Both the position numbers and the translations under genes were made by a program. This document shows positions 36,509 through 47,864 of a stretch of DNA of 64,000 nt, piece after piece. Positions within the stretch are counted from its first letter, which is position 1; each line of letters opens with the position of its first letter. The DNA is from Bacteroidales bacterium (GTDB lineage: Bacteria > Bacteroidota > Bacteroidia > Bacteroidales > ML635J-15). Below the pieces are notes generated by a model. That model did not search any database and was not told the DNA's origin. It saw nothing but the letters and a program-made list of their open reading frames with translations. The DNA lies in contig JAFZRE010000023.1 of NCBI GenBank assembly GCA_017620015.1, positions 1-64,000 on the forward strand. Direction: 5' to 3'.

Positions 36509-39500
36509 TTACCACACCGCAACCTTTTCGGCTTTCATTTCGCCAACCCTTACAACATAAACGCCTGTATTAGGTACATTTATGCGCAATGGTTCATCTG
36601 CTATTACGGTTCCAGAATATATGTGGCGACCTACAATGTCGTAAACATAGACTGGCAAGGTTTCTGAACATTCAACAACTATTTGACCGTCGGATGAATA
36701 AACCTTCAGGTCGGCATAGTGTACTTCGTCAATGCCATTCTCGTCATTGCCTTGCGCAAAAATAGCCATATAGGATTCGTCGCTCTGCACCAGAACTTCC
36801 CTTGTCGCGTTGGCATTGCCATCGTCCCAGCGGACAAAATGATAGCCTTCGTATGCACGAGCCGTCAGAGTTGCTGTTTCCCCGTATGCGTATGCACCGC
36901 CACCACTAACACCACCCATTGCTGGATTGTTGCTATTTGCCGTGATTATGTAGGTATATGGTGCGAAATATGCCGTATATGTTGCATCGCTCAACACGGT
37001 TATAGTACGCGGATTCTGTGTGCTTCCGTCTGCCCAATGGCTAAAGTAGTAATGCTCGTGCGGACTTGCAACCAGCGAAGCCCTTTCGCCAGTATGGTAC
37101 AAGCCTCCGCCATATACCATTCCCCTTGCTGTGTCGGCACTCAAAGCTGTTATGGTAAAGGTAGGATTCTCGGCAAACTGCGCCACGAAAACGGAATCGG
37201 ATGTTACATTTATCAGTCTTGGGTTAGTCGTGCTTCCATCGCTCCATTGCTCAAAGTGATAGTTGGTAGCAGCAGTTGCAATTATTGTTGCCTGCGACAG
37301 ATAGTTGTAGCTTCCTGAGCCAGACACGCTACCCATTTGAGCATTCTCCGCCTCGACGGTAATCGTAAACGATGATATTTCAAATATTGCCGTTAAGGCT
37401 GTGTCTTGCGTGATGACAAGTGTGCGCGGATTGTCGGCGTTGCCATCGTTCCAACGGGCGAAATGGTATCCATAGAATGCCGTCGCCGACAATTCCAAGG
37501 TAGTGCGGTAGTCGTAGAAACCACTGCCAGTTACCGTTCCCATTGTCTCGTCGTTGCTCGTTATGGTTGCCGTATAGCCGTTAACGACAAATTCAGCCGT
37601 AAATATCGTGTCCTGCGTTACGATTATCCTGCGTGGATTTGCAGTTGCACCATCGCTCCACTGAACGAAATGATAGCCAGTAAACGCTTCTGCCGAAATG
37701 TAGGTGGCAGAATTGTAATCGAAATCTCCGCTTCCAATCGCCTCTCCCATTGTCGGATTGTTCGAAGTTGTGGCAACCGAATGTTTGTCGATTGCAAACG
37801 AAGCCGTGAATGTGGTGTCCCTTGTCAGGACTATTGTTCGCGGATTGTCGGTTATGCTGTCGTTCCACTGCACAAAATGGTAATGCTCGATGGCATTTGC
37901 CGTTATTGCCACAAGCGAATTATACTCGTAGGTTCCGCCACCTGTAACATTTCCAAGTGTCACATCGGTGCTGTTGGCTGTTAGCAGGTAATTGTTTGCA
38001 TCGAACTGCGCGGTATAGTTTTCGTCCTGCATAACGACCAGCGAGCGTGGATTTTCGGTATTGCCGTCGCTCCACTGAACGAAGTGGTAACCATAGAATG
38101 CACTTGCCGATATGGTTGCAACGGTGTTGTATGTATAGCTTCCGCTACCCGAAACCGTTCCTCGGTTCGAATTGTTAGGGCTGACCGATACCGCATACGA
38201 ATTTATAGAGAACTGCGCCGTGTATGTGGCATTCTGTATAACGGTGATTGTGCGCGGATTTTCGGTGTTGCCGTCGCTCCATTGCACAAAGTGGTAGCCG
38301 TAGTTGGGCGTTGCCGAAATGTTTACGATAGTGTTGTAGCTATATGTTCCGCCACCAGCCGCAGTGCCGATTGCTGGGTTTGAGCTTCCGACAGAAATGG
38401 CGTAGGTGTTAATCTCGAATATTGCAGTGTAGATGGCGTTCTGCGTCACAGGAACGGTACGCGGATTTTCGGTGTTGCCGTCGCTCCACTGCACGAAATG
38501 ATAACCGTAGGTTGCTGTTGCAGAAAGTGTTGTGGTAGTGTTGTAGCTGAAATTTCCAGTACCGTATGCGCTACCCATACGCGGGTCGTTTGCCTGAACG
38601 GTAATGCTGTAGGTGTTGGCGGCAAACTGAGCCATAAACATAGTGTCCTGAATTACATTTATGGTTCGCGGATTGTTTGAAAGCCCGTCGTTCCACTGCT
38701 CGAAGTGGTAGCCGTAGGCTGGCGTGGCTGTGAGTGCCACCAACGACAGGTAGTTGTAGTTACCTCCGCCCGAAACGCTTCCCATAGTGTTGTTGTTGCT
38801 CGTTGCCGACACCGCATAAATGTTCACTGCAAAGTTGGCTGTAAACGCTGTGTCCTGCGTAACGGTTATCATACGCGGATTGGCGGTGTTGCCGTCGTGC
38901 CACGAAGTAAAATGATAGCCGTAGTTGGCTGTGGCTGCAATGCTTATCTGGTTCTGGTAATAGTAAACACCGCCACCGCTTACCGTACCCATTTCGGGAT
39001 TGTTGTTCGACAGCGTAACCGTTGAAACATTGGGCAAAAATACAGCTGTAAATGTGGAATCCTGCGTAGCAAGCAGATAGCGAGGATTGTCGGTAACTCC
39101 GTCGTGCCAACGCTGGAAATGATAGTTGGTGTATGGTGTTGCCCGCAATTCCACAGGAGCATTGTATGAATACAAGCCCGAACCGCTAACCGAACCCATT
39201 GTAGAATCGTTGCACTGTACGGAAATGTACGAATTGTTTACTACGAATATTGCCATAAAAGCCGTGTCGGAATCGAGTTCAAGTATTCGCGGATTGCTTT
39301 CGTTGCCGTCGTTCCATTTCAGGAAATGGTAGCCGTAGTTGGCATTAGCCCTTATGTGGCACTGGAGGTTACTACAGGTTGGTTGCTGTGCTACGACAGC
39401 CACACCCATCGCATTGTCGTTTGACGAAAGCGAAACCTCGAAGGGCGTAGCCTCCTGTATGTTCGGGAAGTTCTCCCAGTAGTCGGTGACATAGTAGTTT

Positions 39501-41047
39501 AGTACGCGACCGCAAGGCACATACACTGGCACTTCGTTGCTGATACCAGCGAAGGTGTTTTCCGATATTACTGGCGGATTGGTTGGCTTTGCGGTTATAG
39601 CCGTAATCCCCGAACAGCCCGAATACGCACTGTCGCCTATCTGTGTCAAGTTGCGTGGCAGGGTTAACATTCCCTCGAAGCGCGAACATCCGTTGAATGC
39701 CGATGTGCCTATGCTTGTAAGAGTTTCGGGAAGTGCGGGCGAAACCAGCCTTATGCAACCGTTGAATGCGTTGTCGCCAATAGTTTCCACCGACTTGCCA
39801 ATGCTTACCGACGACATACGGAAACATCCGCCAAAAACACCATTGCCAATACTGCGTAACGAATCGCCAATATTTACCTGCACAAGCCTGTCGCAGTTGG
39901 CAAATGCCGAATCTCCCACCGAAACCACATTGCGAGTATCAAGCGAAAGAAGGTTATCGCAGTTTGTAAAGGCGTTAGAGCCAATGGATACTAAAGTGTA
40001 GGGTAATGAAAGAAATGAAGAATTTGCGCAATTGTAGAATGCAAAACTTCCTATCGTTACAACAGAATCTCCTATACTAATGTTTTCCAATCTATTACAA
40101 TCACAAAAAGCATAATCTCCAATACTTGTAACGGAATTGGGTATTGCCAAATCTCCAGCTAAATTGACACAAGACCTAAAAGAACAATTGCCTATTGAAA
40201 CAATATTATTTCCAAGTTCAATTCCAGATAATAATGTACAATTATAAAAAGAATAATCGCTAACATAAGACAAGCGTTTCGGAAGTGTTATAACGCCACT
40301 AATTCTATTACAATTGTAAAATGCACTATCGCCTATATATCTGATTGAATCTCCTAAAATCAAAGTATCAATAGATTCACATTTATAAAAAGCACAAATA
40401 CCAATGCTATCCACATTATTGGGAACAACTAATTTTCCTGTAATTTTGCATTGATAGAATGCATAATCGGGAACTACCTTTACACTATCTCCAATTATTA
40501 AATTTCTGATTGTTTGATTATTAGCAAACCCATTGTTGCATTTCCTTGCATTATAATATATAGTTTCCAATGAATTGCAACCTCTATATATGCTACTATT
40601 AATTGTGGATACAGAATTTCCAATATAACAATAACGAAGATATTCACAATTATAGAACAATTCGTTTCCTAATGACACAACATTATCACCAATAATTAAA
40701 GTATCTATATATGTTTGAGCAAAAGCCTGTTCTCCTATTTCCCTTACAGTATTTGGTACTACTAATTTACCAACAATGTGACATCCGTGTAAAGCGTGTG
40801 CAGCAATCCCAACTACGGGGATTTTTACATTATTATGATTAATAGAATCTGGAATAATAACTGTTGAAGATGAAAAAATATAATTATTGTAAAAACTATC
40901 ATTGTTGTCTCCGGGTCCAAATCCTGACTCGCGAACAACAACGGCTCCCGTAGAACCTATACGATATGTCAATAGTCCAATTTTTACATCTCCGAAAATT
41001 TGGCTAGCAATTAAAATCGTTATAATAAATAGGATAATCTTTTTCAT
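36509..41047 (-). CDS. giant BspA-like LRR and InlB-type repeat T9SS protein
   Basis: A 1512-residue secreted protein with a signal peptide (MKKIILFIITILIASQIFG). Residues ~45-490 are about 18 leucine-rich repeats of the BspA/LRR_5 type ('IGDSAFYNC', 'LTSIGTSAFNGC'). Then come 13 copies of a ~68-residue divergent InlB B-like repeat ('MGSVSGSG', 'YHFVQWSDGNTENPRTI', 'FTAQF'). The C-terminal ~80 residues ('LKVYSSDGQIVVECSETLPVYVYDIVGRHIYSG') form a T9SS type A sorting domain. BspA-like proteins bind host matrix or other bacteria; the ligand here is unknown. The first ~350 residues are encoded by AT-rich DNA, the rest by GC-richer DNA, with a sharp change near 39,990. The start overlaps the upstream gene by ATGA. 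Confidence 0.85.
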   Translation of the reverse strand: MKKIILFIITILIASQIFGDVKIGLLTYRIGSTGAVVVRESGFGPGDNNDSFYNNYIFSSSTVIIPDSINHNNVKIPVVGIAAHALHGCHIVGKLVVPNTVREIGEQAFAQTYIDTLIIGDNVVSLGNELFYNCEYLRYCYIGNSVSTINSSIYRGCNSLETIYYNARKCNNGFANNQTIRNLIIGDSVKVVPDYAFYQCKITGKLVVPNNVDSIGICAFYKCESIDTLILGDSIRYIGDSAFYNCNRISGVITLPKRLSYVSDYSFYNCTLLSGIELGNNIVSIGNCSFRSCVNLAGDLAIPNSVTSIGDYAFCDCNRLENISIGDSVVTIGSFAFYNCANSSFLSLPYTLVSIGSNAFTNCDNLLSLDTRNVVSVGDSAFANCDRLVQVNIGDSLRSIGNGVFGGCFRMSSVSIGKSVETIGDNAFNGCIRLVSPALPETLTSIGTSAFNGCSRFEGMLTLPRNLTQIGDSAYSGCSGITAITAKPTNPPVISENTFAGISNEVPVYVPCGRVLNYYVTDYWENFPNIQEATPFEVSLSSNDNAMGVAVVAQQPTCSNLQCHIRANANYGYHFLKWNDGNESNPRILELDSDTAFMAIFVVNNSYISVQCNDSTMGSVSGSGLYSYNAPVELRATPYTNYHFQRWHDGVTDNPRYLLATQDSTFTAVFLPNVSTVTLSNNNPEMGTVSGGGVYYYQNQISIAATANYGYHFTSWHDGNTANPRMITVTQDTAFTANFAVNIYAVSATSNNNTMGSVSGGGNYNYLSLVALTATPAYGYHFEQWNDGLSNNPRTINVIQDTMFMAQFAANTYSITVQANDPRMGSAYGTGNFSYNTTTTLSATATYGYHFVQWSDGNTENPRTVPVTQNAIYTAIFEINTYAISVGSSNPAIGTAAGGGTYSYNTIVNISATPNYGYHFVQWSDGNTENPRTITVIQNATYTAQFSINSYAVSVSPNNSNRGTVSGSGSYTYNTVATISASAFYGYHFVQWSDGNTENPRSLVVMQDENYTAQFDANNYLLTANSTDVTLGNVTGGGTYEYNSLVAITANAIEHYHFVQWNDSITDNPRTIVLTRDTTFTASFAIDKHSVATTSNNPTMGEAIGSGDFDYNSATYISAEAFTGYHFVQWSDGATANPRRIIVTQDTIFTAEFVVNGYTATITSNDETMGTVTGSGFYDYRTTLELSATAFYGYHFARWNDGNADNPRTLVITQDTALTAIFEISSFTITVEAENAQMGSVSGSGSYNYLSQATIIATAATNYHFEQWSDGSTTNPRLINVTSDSVFVAQFAENPTFTITALSADTARGMVYGGGLYHTGERASLVASPHEHYYFSHWADGSTQNPRTITVLSDATYTAYFAPYTYIITANSNNPAMGGVSGGGAYAYGETATLTARAYEGYHFVRWDDGNANATREVLVQSDESYMAIFAQGNDENGIDEVHYADLKVYSSDGQIVVECSETLPVYVYDIVGRHIYSGTVIADEPLRINVPNTGVYVVRVGEMKAEKVAVW

Positions 41048-41619
41048 AACCTATGCATCTTTTTTATAATTCTATCAGCCTTAAATTTAGACACCATCTT
41101 ATTTTGAGGTGTTGCTGACATTATAAAGTAAGTATATTTTTTTCTATTGTTGTCATTCTCATATTCTAATAACAAATGTATGTCGTCAACAATACATTCT
41201 TTTCTTTTAAGAAAATCTGTTGATTGTTTAGCAGTCATTTTCAAAGGTTGTCTAAGTGTAAATTCTATAGATTTTTTTTCTGCACTTTTTAAATTAAAGA
41301 CATCTGTTTTCAAGTTTTCTCTATCTACATATTTTGGTTGGAATCCAACTATTTTGACTTGATATGCATTAAAAATAGAGTTATTTGAAAATGTTACTTT
41401 ACAAAAATACTCAAACTCATAATTGCATTGTATTTCAGAGACATAATGGACTTTCCCATCATTGATAATATCTACCTGTTTTTTCCCTTTAGAATCCAGA
41501 CTTAAATCAAGAGAAATTCTTGGTCGTTTAAATGTAGGAAGAATAAAACTAAGTAGAGCTATTAATCCATCTAGAATTAGATTTGCAATAGTGTCAATTG
41601 TTATCTTTTCTGTAATCAT
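41044..41619 (-). CDS. unknown protein with N-terminal membrane segment
   Basis: A 191-residue protein not matched to any family. One hydrophobic stretch (residues ~8-28, 'TIANLILDGLIALLSFILP') suggests a membrane anchor. The rest is beta-rich and Lys-rich ('RISLDLSLDSKGKKQVDIIND', 'HLLLEYENDNNRKKYTYFIM'). Its stop overlaps the start of the giant adhesin (ATGA), so the two are translationally coupled. It belongs to the AT-rich block 39.99-42.03 kb and may be a dedicated partner of the adhesin head. Confidence 0.55.
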   Translation of the reverse strand: MITEKITIDTIANLILDGLIALLSFILPTFKRPRISLDLSLDSKGKKQVDIINDGKVHYVSEIQCNYEFEYFCKVTFSNNSIFNAYQVKIVGFQPKYVDRENLKTDVFNLKSAEKKSIEFTLRQPLKMTAKQSTDFLKRKECIVDDIHLLLEYENDNNRKKYTYFIMSATPQNKMVSKFKADRIIKKMHRL

Positions 41620-41679
41620 TTCTACTCGATTCTAAATTTCATACAATGCCACCTAAATAGTATTTCCTATTTAACAATA

Positions 41680-42027
41680 TTACTCAATATCAGAAACATC
41701 ATCCAATTTTATTACCACTTCTTTTTTATATTCATAATTCACATTAGATTTCTCTTTTAGACTGTCTTCCAATGCTTCTTCCAAATCAGACATAACAACA
41801 ACCTTAATCGAATCAAGGATTTCTCTATTTTGAAAAAGATGCAATCTCAGATTGCTTTTTTCTTCTTCTGACAAATCTATGATTGTCAAAAATCCTCCAT
41901 ATTTCTCATAAGATTCGGATGACGGATAGAAGAATAAATTAATTGCGTGTTCCGAAACTGCATTTACAATATCATCATAAGAGTATTTATGTTTCATTCC
42001 CAAAGTTTCTTTATCATTTAAAATCAT
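41680..42027 (-). CDS. small acidic protein, unknown
   Basis: A 115-residue protein of no recognised family, with no signal peptide. It is acidic and mostly helical by composition ('SDLEEALEDSLKEKSN'), ending 'VVIKLDDVSDIE'. An alternative start is the second Met (residue 11, 'MKHKYSYDDIV'). It lies 12 bases after the fibronectin-like lipoprotein stop and within the AT-rich block. A regulatory or chaperone-like role is possible but unsupported. Confidence 0.5.
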   Translation of the reverse strand: MILNDKETLGMKHKYSYDDIVNAVSEHAINLFFYPSSESYEKYGGFLTIIDLSEEEKSNLRLHLFQNREILDSIKVVVMSDLEEALEDSLKEKSNVNYEYKKEVVIKLDDVSDIE

Positions 42028-42039
42028 ATCAATGCATAT

Positions 42040-43341
42040 TTAATTTGTCATAAACATTCTTTCCTCTCCATACACCGTACCTGCACCATTGGTGGCGTAG
42101 GCGCGTACATAGTAGGTTGTGCTGCTGCTAAGGTTGTAGAGCTGGCTCACAAAGTTGCCCAAGCCTGCTCCGTCGGAAGTATGTGGACTGGCAATAGTGG
42201 GATTTGGTGTGGTGCTGTAGCATACGCCACGCGCTGTTACGGCAAATCCACCATCGGCAGAAACAGAGCCTCCGCAGGTCGCAGATGTAGCCGTTACAGC
42301 AGTAACCTCGGAAGTAGTAACCGTTGCCAATCCGCTGAGAGTTGTAAACGACATCTGCTCGCCGTAGGCAGTACCAGCCTCGTTGGTAGCGTAGGCTCGG
42401 AGATAATAGGTTGTGTTGGGTTCAAGGTTTGACACAGAACTAATGAAAGAGCCAAGCCCAGCACCATCCGAAGTGCGCGAGTTGGAAATTGTAGGCTGCA
42501 TTGTAGTACTCCAGCATACGCCACGCGCAGTTATGGCAAATCCGCCATCGGAAACAACATTGCCACCGCTTGATGCAGTAGTTGGCGTAACAGACGAAAC
42601 AGCCACCGTTGTAACGGATGGAAGTCCGTCGCAGGTGGTAAAACTCAACTGCTCGCCATAGCTTGTGCCAACGCCATTGGTCGCGTATGCCCTTATGTAA
42701 TAGGTAGTATTGTAGTGCAAAGTGGAAATTGTAGTCTCGAAAACGCCTGTGCCGTTGCCCACAGCCACAACGCTGTCGCGCAGTGTAGGATATTGCATTG
42801 TACTCCAGCACAAACCTCGCGAAACCACATCGGAACGCCCGCCGTCGGTAACATTACCTCCGCAATGCACCGATGTTGCCGTAACCGCCGAAAATTCCAT
42901 TGTGCTTACCAACGGAAAATCGGGGCCAACGACATACACAGAACCGATTTCGTAGAACTGCTTGCCAAAGCCCATATCGGTCAAAGCAATAGTCCGCGAC
43001 TCATACAGCGAATCGGCTTCAACTTTCAGGTAGTAGCCTTTCCCTGCAAGGTCGCAGTCAATCTCGATTTCAAAACTACCATCGCGTCCCGAAACCACAG
43101 TAAGCGGAACAAGCTCTCCATCGGTAAGCGAAATACGAGCATCGACAACAGGATTGTTGGTTCGTTGGTCAAGGAGCACGCCGCTGCATAAGGTTGTGTC
43201 GTATATGCCTTCCTTCTCCAACTGCTTTATGCAGGACGGAAACAAGAAGGAAAAAACAATAAGCGTAAAAATGAATACGAAGGAGTTTCTCCTTACCGCA
43301 ATTATTCTTCCGATTTTAAATTGTCCTTTATCCATTTTCAA
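42040..43341 (-). CDS. lipoprotein with carboxypeptidase-regulatory-like and fibronectin-like repeats
   Basis: A 433-residue protein with a signal peptide and lipobox ('FLFPSC', Cys37). Residues ~45-140 look like a carboxypeptidase regulatory-like Ig domain ('GVLLDQRTNNPVVDARISLTDG'). Three ~95-residue fibronectin-like repeats follow, each with 'SGGNV..DGG..ARGVCWSTT..PT', 'NTTYYLRAYATN' and 'YGEQMSFTT'. Repeats of this kind are common in Bacteroidales surface lipoproteins. The nearest upstream Met alternative is residue 3. The protein probably sits on the outer membrane and accompanies the cargo adhesin. Confidence 0.75.
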   Translation of the reverse strand: MKMDKGQFKIGRIIAVRRNSFVFIFTLIVFSFLFPSCIKQLEKEGIYDTTLCSGVLLDQRTNNPVVDARISLTDGELVPLTVVSGRDGSFEIEIDCDLAGKGYYLKVEADSLYESRTIALTDMGFGKQFYEIGSVYVVGPDFPLVSTMEFSAVTATSVHCGGNVTDGGRSDVVSRGLCWSTMQYPTLRDSVVAVGNGTGVFETTISTLHYNTTYYIRAYATNGVGTSYGEQLSFTTCDGLPSVTTVAVSSVTPTTASSGGNVVSDGGFAITARGVCWSTTMQPTISNSRTSDGAGLGSFISSVSNLEPNTTYYLRAYATNEAGTAYGEQMSFTTLSGLATVTTSEVTAVTATSATCGGSVSADGGFAVTARGVCYSTTPNPTIASPHTSDGAGLGNFVSQLYNLSSSTTYYVRAYATNGAGTVYGEERMFMTN

Positions 43342-43348
43342 TTCCTAA

Positions 43349-44167
43349 TTAGAATTTTACCGTCATCTGCACTCCAAGCGCAACATTCTCCTGCACAGGC
43401 ATTACACTAGGCGCAAACGACAAGCCATCCTTGTATTTCGGACTTATCGAAAACGCCCTGTACAAGTTGAAAACATATACGGCAGCAGCCGTTCCCCAAG
43501 CAATGTAGCTTGTGGTACGCAACGAATTGTAGGTCTTCTTCGCATTGGAAAAATCCTCGTATGTAACATTGCTGTCGCGCATAATGTCAAGCTGCCGTCT
43601 CGAAAATAGGTAGCAACCAGTACCGACACCAGCAAGAAGCACCTCGGATGTAAGAGTGATAATGCCCTCGCCATAATGTCGCTTGCCCATCTGCCCAAGA
43701 CCGGGCACGAATGCAGACTTCAGCAAGGCTACACCATTGTTGTACTCGTGTATGTCGTTACAGCCATTGAATGTTTCCCATATCACGGTTATATTTCCCG
43801 CCACAGCCACCTGACATAGCACATACACACGAAACATTCCGCCCGACACCTTTTCTACATACTCGCAGACCTTGTTCATCGGAATATTGAACTGTCTTGA
43901 AATCACTTCCAATGCAGTTCCACTCTGTACGGCTGCATTTACATCGGCGGCATCCACAGGTTGTCCAAGTCGGTTCGCCGTAGTCTGAAACACTCGCGCA
44001 ATCGCCTGATTTCTTGCATCCGCTTCGGAATAAGCAAGAGCCGACTCGCACACATACATATAAGTGCCGTTGCCAGCCTTCGGTAGTTTTTTTGTCCACG
44101 CAGGCGTTTGTGCATTGGCGAATGCAACCGCCAGCAATAGCAATATCAGTGGGAAAAGTTTATTCAT
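43349..44167 (-). CDS. exported DUF5683-like membrane protein with LPP20-like N-domain
   Basis: A 272-residue protein with a signal peptide ending 'FANAQ'. The N-terminal half ('YSEADARNQAIARVFQTTANRLG') resembles LPP20/SIMPL-like envelope proteins. The C-terminal half has membrane-like segments and the 'KSAFVPGLGQMGKRHYGEGI' motif of DUF5683, often annotated as an outer-membrane or membrane-embedded protein of Bacteroidota. No activity is known. It follows the LPP20-like lipoprotein and precedes the fibronectin-like lipoprotein by 7 bases. Confidence 0.65.
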   Translation of the reverse strand: MNKLFPLILLLLAVAFANAQTPAWTKKLPKAGNGTYMYVCESALAYSEADARNQAIARVFQTTANRLGQPVDAADVNAAVQSGTALEVISRQFNIPMNKVCEYVEKVSGGMFRVYVLCQVAVAGNITVIWETFNGCNDIHEYNNGVALLKSAFVPGLGQMGKRHYGEGIITLTSEVLLAGVGTGCYLFSRRQLDIMRDSNVTYEDFSNAKKTYNSLRTTSYIAWGTAAAVYVFNLYRAFSISPKYKDGLSFAPSVMPVQENVALGVQMTVKF

Positions 44168-44261: not shown

Positions 44262-44840
44262 CTAATATTCTCCGCTCTTAATCTTTGCCATACGGTCTTC
44301 TGCGAACTTGCGGAACTGTGCCCTGTTGAACTCGATTTCAAGTTCTTCGCTGTCCGAAAGTGCGGTTGACATCTTGTCTAGCATTTCCTTCTTCGATACC
44401 CTAATGGCAGTATGCGACTGGTATGTACCCGATTGTGTCTCATACAACTTTTCGCAAGTCTTTTCTGCATCGTTAAGCATTTTCTGAACTACGGTGTTCA
44501 TTTCGCCTTCCATTGCACGCTGAACCTTGTCCTGCTGTGCGCTACCCGACATAGTACGACTGTAATCGGTTGCCAATCCAACGACAAAACCACCTAGACG
44601 CTTCATCAGCATACTCTTTGCTGCATCAAACGAAGCGGAACGGGCATTCTGCATATTGGTATTTTCGGCAGTACCCATACCAGTGAAATACTCCTCGGTG
44701 TCGTGGTCAAACCCTTCACACGGCAACTGGATTTCCTTCATACCTTTGTCCTGCGGCGTAACAACAGCCTGTTTCGATTTGCATCCTACGAATGCCATTG
44801 CAGCTAAAAACAATGCTGCGATTAAAACTTTTGTATTCAT
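44262..44840 (-). CDS. LPP20-like lipoprotein
   Basis: A 192-residue lipoprotein (lipobox 'AFVGC', Cys20). The family pattern is 'FTGMGTAENTNMQNARSASFDAAKSMLMKRLGGFV', the LPP20/curli-associated type region in which an Ala-rich helix follows a short strand. The first gene of the cargo operon, directly behind the structured leader. Function is unknown; its repeat of the LPP20-like theme with the next gene suggests that the two form a complex. Confidence 0.7.
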   Translation of the reverse strand: MNTKVLIAALFLAAMAFVGCKSKQAVVTPQDKGMKEIQLPCEGFDHDTEEYFTGMGTAENTNMQNARSASFDAAKSMLMKRLGGFVVGLATDYSRTMSGSAQQDKVQRAMEGEMNTVVQKMLNDAEKTCEKLYETQSGTYQSHTAIRVSKKEMLDKMSTALSDSEELEIEFNRAQFRKFAEDRMAKIKSGEY

Positions 44841-44885
44841 TTCTATAATAGTTTAAAATTAATCAACTACAAAAAATCCTACTAC

Positions 44886-45151
44886 CACGGATTCCTTTGG
44901 CAGAAACTAATTTTAAACAATCGAAATAGGCATATAAAAAAGCGTGGAATCCGTGCTGTTGCCCGTTCCCACACATAGGGGCCTTCGCATTGCCCAACCT
45001 AGTAAAACGAGCAACGCTGAAGCCCACGCTGGTATATGGTTAGAGTAAACCATACTCAGTCGCAGGCATTCACAGTTGCTATTGTCTTGACTAGGTTTTT
45101 AGAAAGTTGCGAAGTTTCTATGTGTCAAAACAAAGCGTCAGTAAACGCCTT
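44886..45151 (-). ncRNA. candidate structured leader RNA of the cargo operon
   Basis: In transcript (minus-strand) order there are: stem 45151-45145 / 45138-45132, stem 45119-45101, stem 45054-45048 / 45041-45035 (7 bp perfect), a long stem 45025-45009 / 44995-44978 (~16 bp) and a 10-bp perfect stem 44955-44946 / 44895-44886 followed by a T-run (44873-44868). The loop of the long stem (44996-45003) is perfectly complementary over 8 bases to 45090-45097, a possible pseudoknot. A -7 box lies upstream at 45213-45206 and the LPP20-like gene starts at 44840. It could be a riboswitch-like attenuator or an independent RNA. No known family was recognised. Confidence 0.6.
44913..44990 (-). CDS. possible 25-residue leader peptide inside the structured RNA
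   Basis: An ATG-started frame of 25 codons (begins MRRPLCVGTG, ends PISIV) lies within the structured leader and spans its terminal 10-bp hairpin. Its translation would compete with that hairpin, as in attenuators. No clear ribosome-binding site is visible, so it may be chance. Confidence 0.3.
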   Translation of the reverse strand: MRRPLCVGTGNSTDSTLFYMPISIV

Positions 45152-45205
45152 AAATATATGTCTGCCATACTGCCTATCACAATGATAAAGCAAGGTATGA
45201 CGAGA

Positions 45206-45213
45206 CAAAGGTA
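45206..45213 (-). promoter_or_regulatory. -7 box TACCTTTG for the structured leader
   Basis: On the minus strand TACCTTTG lies ~55 bases before the first hairpin of the leader. No -33 TTG stands at the right distance. The start of the cargo operon transcript is expected near 45200. Confidence 0.55.
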
Positions 45214-45287: not shown

Positions 45288-45920
45288 TCAGATGCCTAGT
45301 CTTCCTTTGATTTTCTGGACGGTTGGCAGGCTCACATCGCAGAGCTTTGCCGTCCTTCGTAGGCTGGTGCCTTTCTTCAATTCTTTGATGACTTTCGGGT
45401 ATTCCTTTTCGAGTTGTTCCGCAGTCTTTTTTGTCCCTTTCGGGCGACCCACATATCCGCCATCCGCGATGTATTTCGCTCGTCCACTGTTTAGTCTGAA
45501 CTTGATGTTCTCTCTTTCTAGCTCTGCGCAGGTAGATAATGTCGCAAGCATTATGGGGGCGAATGTGGATGGTTTGCCATCTTCATTCAGTAGAGTGAAT
45601 TGTTCTTTCTGGAGATACAAGTTGATTTGATGGTCAACGAGCAGTTTTATTGTTTCGAGAACTTCGAATGACGACCTGCCAATCCTTGACAGTTCGCTCA
45701 CCAACAGAATGTCTATATCATTGTCGATGCAATAGGAGAGTGCTTCTTGTAGAGTTTTTCGTTCTTCGTTCTTCTTCGCTCCCGATATTTTTTCCTCAAA
45801 GGTGTTTGCAACATCATATTGAGCGAACTCCGCGTACTTCCTCAAATCTACTACTTGTCGTTCTGTGTTCTGCCTGTCGGTGGTAGATGATACTCTGGCA
45901 TAAATGACCGCTGTTTTCAT
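45288..45920 (-). CDS. serine recombinase (resolvase/invertase family)
   Basis: A 210-residue site-specific recombinase. The N-terminal catalytic domain shows 'YARVSST' with the nucleophile Ser11 (or 12) and Arg9, and 'DILLVSELSRIGRSSFEVL', the conserved active-site helix. The C-terminal 'GYVGRPKGTKKTAEQLEKEYP' and 'SLRRTAKLCDVSLPTVQKIKGRLG' are the linker and DNA-binding helix-turn-helix of the small resolvase/invertase group. It could resolve element dimers or invert DNA. No obvious inverted res/hix pair was found nearby. A -7 box (CAAAGGTA on the plus strand, 45942-45949) lies upstream. Confidence 0.87.
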   Translation of the reverse strand: MKTAVIYARVSSTTDRQNTERQVVDLRKYAEFAQYDVANTFEEKISGAKKNEERKTLQEALSYCIDNDIDILLVSELSRIGRSSFEVLETIKLLVDHQINLYLQKEQFTLLNEDGKPSTFAPIMLATLSTCAELERENIKFRLNSGRAKYIADGGYVGRPKGTKKTAEQLEKEYPKVIKELKKGTSLRRTAKLCDVSLPTVQKIKGRLGI

Positions 45921-46124
45921 ACTTCAATTTTTTTGTTTCCGCAAAGGTAATAATATATTGACAATATATAACGAAAAATCAAAGATTTTTTATTATACAA
46001 AAATCTGAGTGTATAATGTGGTTGTTTAAGATTTATCGTTGTACAGTTTGACGTGTTGTACAGAATGGAAGAGTTGGCAATTTGTAAAAATATAAATAAT
46101 ACATAATATATGTATTGAAGTTAT

Positions 46125-46496
46125 ATGAGCGAAAAGAATATAACGAAACAAGAATTTGTCGGTAACTCCGACAGCAGTCAAGATTATGATTTATTCTCGT
46201 ATGTGAAAGATATGACACATACGCTTTCTGAATTGAAGCAGATAGTCTATTCTTTAAAAGACGAGGTGGATTATATAAAGGAAGTGGCAGGAAAGAGTCC
46301 GAAGATGATATATACAAGTTCGGAGGTGATGAAGATGCTAGATGTATGTCCAAACACATTGAAGTATTATCGCGACAATGGTATGTTGGGCTATTCTCGT
46401 GTAGGAGACAAGTGCTTTTACACCACGGAAGACCTTTTGGAGTTTATGGGAAGGAACCATCACGTTGCATTCAAGTATGAAGATAGCCGTGCTTGA
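46125..46496 (+). CDS. excisionase-like helix-turn-helix protein
   Basis: A 123-residue protein with a Glu/Lys-rich helical N-terminus and a MerR/excisionase-type winged helix at residues ~64-110 ('YTSSEVMKMLDVCPNTLKYYRDNGMLGYSRVGDKCFYTTEDLLEFM'). It lies head-to-tail against the integrase gene (convergent, 21 bases between stops) and so probably sets the direction of recombination. Confidence 0.75.
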   Translation: MSEKNITKQEFVGNSDSSQDYDLFSYVKDMTHTLSELKQIVYSLKDEVDYIKEVAGKSPKMIYTSSEVMKMLDVCPNTLKYYRDNGMLGYSRVGDKCFYTTEDLLEFMGRNHHVAFKYEDSRA

Positions 46497-46517
46497 TAAT
46501 AGTGGCGTTTCCTTATG

Positions 46518-47864
46518 TCATTTTTTTATTTTGGGGATTGGTATGTCCAAAGACATATCGATGAGGTCATCTGATAAGGTCTTGGGTAGGTATTTGGCAT
46601 ATATTCTTTCTGTAATTTCGGACGATGCGTGACCTAGCATCTGACTGACTTTTGACATTTGGATTTTCTTCTCATTAAGTGCATACATTGCGAATGAATG
46701 GCGGGCAACGTGGAATGTCAGTGTGAATGGAAGTCCGATTTTTTCTCCGACAACGCGCAGGCTTTGGTTAATAGATGCGGTTACAGAATTTCGCCTATTA
46801 TAGATGTCTTCTGCATTGTTTAGGTCGAAGTCATCGGGAAGCAGTCCGAATACGAAATGTTGTTTGCTATGTGTCTTTTCCCAGTTCTCAAGAATGTCTT
46901 TAGCCCCTTGGGTAAGAGGGATTGTGTTCCGTTGTTTCGTCTTGATTTGGTTCTTTGTGATTTTTTTATGTTCGAAGTCAATGTCCTTCCATCTTAGAGT
47001 TATTATGTCTGATACTCGTAATCCGCAAGCGTGGAATGCGAATAGAAACATTATGATATATTCGCGCTGTCTGTCTCGACATAGTTCCTCATCGCAATAT
47101 TGTGCAAGGCGAGATAGTTGTTCTTCGACTAAGTATTTCCCGTCGAACTTTTCATTAGCATCATATTCTTCAATCTCGGTGATTCTACAATCTTCGAGCA
47201 GAACACCTATTTTGTGGTCTATCAGACCAAGGGCGCAGGCATACTTACAAGCTTTGATGATAGGTGTTAATGCGTGGTTTATGGTTGCGCTACAGTTGTG
47301 TTTTATGTTTTGCTTGAATAGAATGTATTCGTTTAATAGTTCTGGTGTTATTTCCCCAAGGTATATTGAGTCGGTTTTGTATGTGCCGTGTGATGTTGAA
47401 ACAAGAAACTGTTTGAAAATGTTAATGGCACTTCGTCCATTGTTGTAGGTGCTGAAGCTAATCTTGTGCTTGTTGTACTCGCTTTGAAGATAAGAGAGAA
47501 CAAAGTCGCAGAAATCTTTGCCTTCGTCTTGCCTGCAAACACCTTTCCCGTCCAAAATGTCTTTTATTATATCGGCAGTAAGCCTGTTAGGATGTTCCTG
47601 AGCATATTGAGCGACAATCGCATCGTATTTGCTTATTCTGTTTGCTAGGATGTTGTTTACTTCTCGGTAATCCTGCCCGTATGAAGCTTTTAATTGTTCT
47701 CCATCCCAGTCGGCTATTCTGGCAGTGTAGCCGCTCTGCCGACGGACTGGTTTCCTGAAAATACAATACTCATAACAGATTGAATAACGCTTGTCTGTTT
47801 GTGCATTCTTTGGCGCCATTAAACGCAACTTTCCATTCGGAAATAACTTTCGGTTTCGTCCCAT
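46518..47864 (-). CDS. int: tyrosine recombinase (integrase) of the mobile element
   Basis: A 448-residue phage-type integrase. The N-terminal arm-binding region ends near residue 60 ('SGYTARIADWDGEQLKASYG'); a SAM-like core-binding domain spans ~115-210. The catalytic set is present: Arg283 ('CGLRVSD'), His385-x-x-Arg388 ('HVARHSF'), His412 ('LGHASS') and Tyr422 ('ERIYAKY'). This is the large integrase type common in Bacteroidales mobile elements. It lies ~190 bases inside attR. A -7 box TACATTTG (minus, 47927-47920) stands ~55 bases upstream. Confidence 0.9.
   Translation of the reverse strand: MGRNRKLFPNGKLRLMAPKNAQTDKRYSICYEYCIFRKPVRRQSGYTARIADWDGEQLKASYGQDYREVNNILANRISKYDAIVAQYAQEHPNRLTADIIKDILDGKGVCRQDEGKDFCDFVLSYLQSEYNKHKISFSTYNNGRSAINIFKQFLVSTSHGTYKTDSIYLGEITPELLNEYILFKQNIKHNCSATINHALTPIIKACKYACALGLIDHKIGVLLEDCRITEIEEYDANEKFDGKYLVEEQLSRLAQYCDEELCRDRQREYIIMFLFAFHACGLRVSDIITLRWKDIDFEHKKITKNQIKTKQRNTIPLTQGAKDILENWEKTHSKQHFVFGLLPDDFDLNNAEDIYNRRNSVTASINQSLRVVGEKIGLPFTLTFHVARHSFAMYALNEKKIQMSKVSQMLGHASSEITERIYAKYLPKTLSDDLIDMSLDIPIPKIKK

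Follow-up and report, generated by a model that had tools for sequence, protein, structure and literature searches.

The window analysed here, a 64,000-nt stretch of a Bacteroidales contig, carries on its minus strand a leader (45206-44886) flanked by a serine recombinase gene and a leftward-transcribed operon. Since the operon runs leftwards, the minus strand is the relevant one, and on it a Bacteroidales promoter is followed by a structured core of about 217 nt, a U-tract and then the operon from 44840:

45206..45213, minus strand: -7 promoter element TACCTTTG (TAnnTTTG), a motif conserved upstream of the core
45160..45206, minus strand: 5' stem-loop of the transcript, variable in sequence and present across relatives (from the sequence, an alignment of 99 relatives, and folding)
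45151-44935, minus strand: structured core, about 217 nt
44936..44941, minus strand: U-tract of the predicted intrinsic terminator, directly after CCACGC
44262..44840, minus strand: first operon gene, an ORF for a 192-aa putative lipoprotein
36509..44167, minus strand: remaining co-directional operon, from ORFs and Pfam matches

The remaining operon products are proteins of 272 aa, 433 aa (Fn3-like), 115 aa and 191 aa and a 1512-aa BspA-type LRR protein. Other genera encode homologues of the 192-aa putative lipoprotein immediately after the same RNA. The next genes upstream of the leader (45288-47864) are the serine recombinase gene, an HTH/MerR-like gene and a tyrosine integrase gene, which suggests a mobile element boundary at the window copy.

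A first-pass annotation, made from the sequence alone, had proposed a structured leader upstream of this cargo operon, and our analysis confirms one, on the minus strand. The minus-strand fold of the 346-nt region has an energy of -124.7 kcal/mol (z -7.1, with 0 of 100 shuffles reaching it), its helices covary among relatives, and the plus-strand fold is weaker (z -4.7 only). Across relatives the helices contain 459 G-U cells but only 59 A-C cells, which shows that the RNA is the minus strand; a plus-strand RNA was ruled out by this balance together with the weaker fold.

When 100 related genomes were searched at the DNA level, 19 had matches, often several in each, and a pattern scan of GTDB returned at least 117 stretches; among the matches listed, nearly all are from Bacteroidales, including the named isolates Paraprevotella clara, Hallella mizrahii and Phocaeicola oris. 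A profile search collected about 140 full or near-full copies, including some loci fetched twice, from which an alignment set of 117 non-redundant copies was made. The covariance model from Bacteroidales relatives that the annotation had suggested was built for the 3' domain and used for a genome census, in which 83 of 393 Bacteroidales genomes match at E 0.001 and 58 below 1e-6 (strong carriers), with up to 9 copies per genome; under stricter filters, no copy was found in 197 other Bacteroidota genomes sampled. The leader is found across gut and rumen Bacteroidales, and in 13 of the 26 genomes of the window's own genus. In the window genome itself, the same contig carries another full copy at a distance of 47 kb (L042, G000:C21:92172-92268). 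No match to the RNA was found in PLSDB, and a plasmid-borne element was rejected on that ground. Viral matches amount to a single weak one, on a 4.3-kb scaffold that lacks annotation, and one convincing IMG/VR copy (L185, IMGVR_UViG_3300021319_000137), so a phage-specific element was likewise rejected, viral copies being only occasional. Copies on contigs of viral collections (L185, and L031, MT839469.1, at 2517-2779 of the locus), one of them from human faeces, hint at occasional carriage of the RNA by phages or prophages.

The core folds through the following local and long-range helices:

45132..45151, minus strand: P0, local hairpin AAGGCG..CGCUUU, 95.7% of cells paired
45149-45141 with 45073-45065, minus strand: P1, 97.9% paired, double changes in 2 pairs (21 cells)
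45130-45124 with 45091-45085, minus strand: P2, compensatory changes in 5 of 5 counted pairs
45125-45118 with 44978-44971, minus strand: PKa, long-range, compensatory changes in 8 of 8 pairs
45114-45109 with 44988-44983, minus strand: PKb, long-range, CUUCGC with GCGAAG, 99.5% paired, 4 of 6 pairs compensatory
45097-45090 with 45003-44996, minus strand: P6, AACCUAGU with ACUAGGUU, permutation test in 117 relatives
45030..45058, minus strand: P3, stem-loop of variable length, mean fold z -4.2 against mononucleotide shuffles
45015-45007 with 44966-44958, minus strand: P4, GUUGCUCGU with ACGGGCAAC, 96.5% paired, double changes at 5 of 9 pairs
44979..44995, minus strand: P5, short hairpin GGGC/GGCC, 97.1% paired, double changes at 2 pairs
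45029-45023 with 44948-44942, minus strand: A, GCGUGGG with the terminator 3' arm, 98.2% paired
44944..44972, minus strand: B, terminator hairpin GUGGGA/UUCCAC, 93.7% paired, 29 double-change cells at 2 pairs in A1

Covariation was counted on an alignment of 70 sequences. With P1, P2 and A in the helix set, 96.2% of pairs are standard and 28 of 48 pairs have changed on both sides (340 such cells); none of 500 shuffles matched any of these measures, and sliding the partners by 1-3 columns lowers pairing to 40-51%. An alternative set, in which P0 and B replace P1, P2 and A, scores equally well (297 double-change cells; 40-53% paired after sliding). P1 and P0 are themselves alternatives, and P0 shows G-C/A-U exchange at one pair in 13 sequences. 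Several PKa pairs occur as all four Watson-Crick types. P6 is among the strongest pairings of the family: it cannot be aligned column by column, and was scored by permutation instead, giving a mean Watson-Crick run of 7.68 nt within the same relative against 3.76 +/- 0.09 with permuted segments. It corresponds to the 8-bp loop pairing of the first-pass annotation, its arms lying 86 nt apart rather than the 90 noted there. Compensatory change, on which the annotation had made its proposal depend, is thus seen in the stems (340 double-change cells) as well as in this pairing (7.7 against 3.76), and the secondary structure of the leader RNA is kept by it.

PKa, PKb and P6 join the loop of P2 to that of P4, so that the RNA is pseudoknotted when P1/P2 and A/P4 are formed; without these, a long rod is the minimum-energy fold. 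The 3' strand of PKb lies in the loop of P5, and the P3 region spans 31-117 nt among relatives.

The 3' arm of the terminator, UUCCACGC (44949-44942), is claimed by two partners, the far-upstream strand of A (45029-45023) and the local strand of B (44972-44967). A is nearly invariant, with double changes at 2 pairs, and three core positions covary together: 132 in A, 187 in B and 207 in the shared arm. Sequences with U rather than C at arm base 207 mostly have A at the B partner 187, and about one in three of those with U also has A at the A partner 132. The energies of the A and B folds lie on average within about 2 kcal/mol of each other, and both folds sequester the arm ahead of the U-tract. 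This is direct sequence evidence for predicted states of the terminator arm that are mutually exclusive, as in an attenuator.

In 115 of 117 relatives the contested arm is followed by a U-tract (44941-44936 in the window) with 5 or more U among 8 nt, and with the covarying B stem this tract places a predicted intrinsic terminator between promoter and gene. The T-run that the annotation had noted after its final stem, some 30 bases ahead of the gene, is local to the window copy and not conserved. The final 10-bp stem drawn there represents, in this copy, a pairing found throughout the family that reaches past the terminator:

44955-44946 with 44895-44886, minus strand: post-terminator pairing, CACGGAUUCC with GGAAUCCGUG, the terminator arm with a downstream hairpin loop

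Complementarity between these segments is 5.66 within the same relative against 4.74 +/- 0.10 when permuted, and the pairing is short or missing in about a quarter of relatives. In many relatives (e.g. L052, L104 and L142) the 5' stem-loop carries a conserved CACGCCGA ... GGGUGGG motif, in which the CACGC core of the terminator arm recurs and which could serve as a third partner for arm A; the window copy is without it.

The RNA is consistently found upstream of, and co-directional with, a gene a short distance away: in 130 cases the first downstream gene is co-directional by 122:8, usually 45-100 nt away and mostly within 100 nt. The upstream gene is co-directional too in about two thirds of loci (87:45), so that local orientation bias supplies part of this figure. 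Of 117 relatives, 103 have TAnnTTTG ahead of the core, where about 8 are expected, and mostly at a distance of 60-80 nt; between core and gene the motif shows no excess (5 of 100 against 4.7 expected). A stable trans-acting sRNA that ends at the terminator, its adjacent gene being incidental, would likewise have its own promoter, a strong predicted terminator, a compact ornate fold and multiple copies per genome, but it would not explain why the downstream gene is so regularly co-directional and close, why that gene lacks a separate promoter, or why conserved pairing extends past the terminator. We consider the sRNA improbable, and the orientation ratio, the absence of a gene-proximal promoter excess and the co-evolving post-terminator structure together support a predicted cis-acting leader with an intrinsic terminator. 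The annotation had left the choice between riboswitch, attenuator and stable small RNA open; an attenuator-type cis leader is favoured by the 122:8 ratio and the post-terminator pairing, with ligand binding only a candidate role.

What the leader precedes is highly diverse. Pfam matches in the 98 first genes span 91 families, none seen in more than 6 of the genes, the commonest types being LRR/BspA, Big_2, PEGA, T9SS-sorted and DUF2971 proteins; lipoproteins also occur, as do defence-type matches (AbiH, a PD-T4-6-like kinase and PDC-S31). A crude test scores 57% of first genes as having a signal-like N-terminus, compared with 28% for the upstream genes (p 1e-7). The second copy in the window genome precedes a PIN-domain/superfamily-1 helicase operon, and genus mates carry different cargo at that site. 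Five genus mates share one chromosomal site at which the leader and the flank upstream of it are conserved and different genes follow; homology breaks off at about leader position 340 and, in four of the five, picks up again several kb further on. The downstream genes do not share a ligand-linked pathway, which argues against a classical metabolite-feedback switch, and so varied a cargo suggests that the leader answers to a general signal, physiological or environmental, to a protein or to an elongation factor rather than to feedback by a pathway product.

A cargo-independent, pseudoknotted leader of accessory operons could also be a processive antitermination element, whose fold modifies RNA polymerase to ignore the leader terminator and later operon terminators. 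EAR and put are such RNAs, found as structured leaders of long or accessory operons. The present RNA resembles them in preceding accessory operons, but differs in phylum, has no sequence match to them and gives no sign of action past its own terminator; the intrinsic switch features inside the leader suffice to explain control. Nor does any NusG partner fit: extra paralogues are present in genus mates lacking the RNA, while in carriers one NusG or none was found, and a NusG-paralogue partner was rejected for this mismatch of copy numbers. We regard processive antitermination, too, as an unlikely account. An RRM_1 RNA-binding protein is absent from 13 of 13 carriers in the window's genus and present in 13 of 13 non-carriers; order-wide the association is weaker (absent in 40 of 58 strong carriers against 96 of 335 others). 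Since 18 strong carriers possess the protein as well as the RNA, and the split within the genus is confounded by clade, the link is a correlation only, and RRM_1 as counterpart of the RNA was set aside as phylogeny-confounded and kept as a lead.

The serine recombinase and tyrosine integrase genes adjoining the window copy, and the exchange of cargo exactly after the leader at one site, would be expected of a DNA-level recombination site, be it a folded cassette end resembling attC or an invertible promoter belonging to the recombinase next to it. We think this very unlikely: the G-U to A-C balance means that selection acts on an RNA made from one strand, the recombinase formed a cluster of its own in neighbourhood clustering and so is not a standard neighbour of the RNA, and no second copy marks the ends of the cargo. 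Ribosome-mediated attenuation by a leader peptide is scarcely credible and was rejected even though amino-acid operon leaders likewise have a terminator whose partners exclude each other, because the cargo is non-biosynthetic and the core, which ranges from 205 to 297 nt and falls about equally often into each of the three frames, shows no frame preference and hence no conserved short ORF.

The attenuator-type cis leader is the reading that we favour. Judging from sequence comparison, we think it likely that the RNA is the 5' untranslated leader of the 44840-36509 operon and represents a new Bacteroidales family of cis-acting, attenuator- or riboswitch-like elements with a contested terminator arm. 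Transcription would start from the Bacteroidales promoter element 60-80 nt before the core, and the RNA would fold via the long-range helices P2, PKa/PKb, P6, P4 and P5, some crossing as pseudoknots. The terminator 3' arm would then pair either with far-upstream A (GCGUGGG) or with local B (GUGGGA), never both, and we infer that the tertiary fold picks the winning partner. The last two bases of PKa are common to B, and P4 is nested directly within A, so that a signal acting on the pseudoknotted domain, whether by stabilising or by melting it, would determine how much of the RNA polymerase reads through. Such a signal, perhaps a small molecule, a protein or an elongation factor, would make this a form of attenuation. 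After read-through, the loop of the further hairpin near the start codon may capture the same arm, locking the read-through form or tuning translation.

No family of Rfam 15 (4227 families) reaches its gathering score for the leader in the window and 16 relatives' loci, in line with the annotation, which had recognised no known family; the only matches in those loci are rRNA, tRNA and an unrelated DUF805b, and a permissive Rfam scan gave chance-level matches only. None of the papers found describes it; an earlier unnamed listing is possible, either among the 224 motifs published in 2017 or among the human-microbiome candidates, which number in the thousands (PMC8040213). Terminator-embedded riboswitches, of which the HMP-PP/thiS class is an example (PMC6478431), similarly occupy a 5' leader and have a terminator arm within the conserved fold and mutually exclusive helices, but the present leader is much larger (about 280 nt), has no Rfam sequence relation and precedes cargo of no single pathway. 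The Bacteroidales-1, Bacteroides-1 and Bacteroid-trp motifs are structured RNAs of the same order (Weinberg 2010, PMC2864571); the comparison covered those of that work with Rfam numbers (RF01692-RF01694), which gave no match, Bacteroides-2 having no Rfam number there. GOLLD, ROOL and OLE (PMC12286853) are also ornate pseudoknotted bacterial RNAs, ROOL also coming from the rumen, but the present RNA has no Rfam match, is smaller and is a cis leader with a terminator directly before a gene.

The family occurs in about a fifth of sampled species, before surface proteins, BspA-type repeats and defence-like genes. We propose, tentatively and as somewhat short of probable, that it is a new class of ligand- or factor-sensing RNA switch, a transferable control module before exchangeable surface and conflict operons. 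If so, one cellular signal would set a large accessory repertoire through an RNA rather than a transcription factor, and identifying that signal would reveal a shared input over a large, fast-changing gene set. Bacteroidales are dominant members of gut and rumen communities, and to our knowledge few RNA switches are known in them. The leader is an orphan riboswitch candidate present in cultured isolates. The window genome also holds a natural deletion mutant (L050, G000:C32, about 178602-178783), a leader that has lost its middle, so that promoter and 5' half run directly into the terminator arm, and that precedes an SPFH/Band_7 gene.
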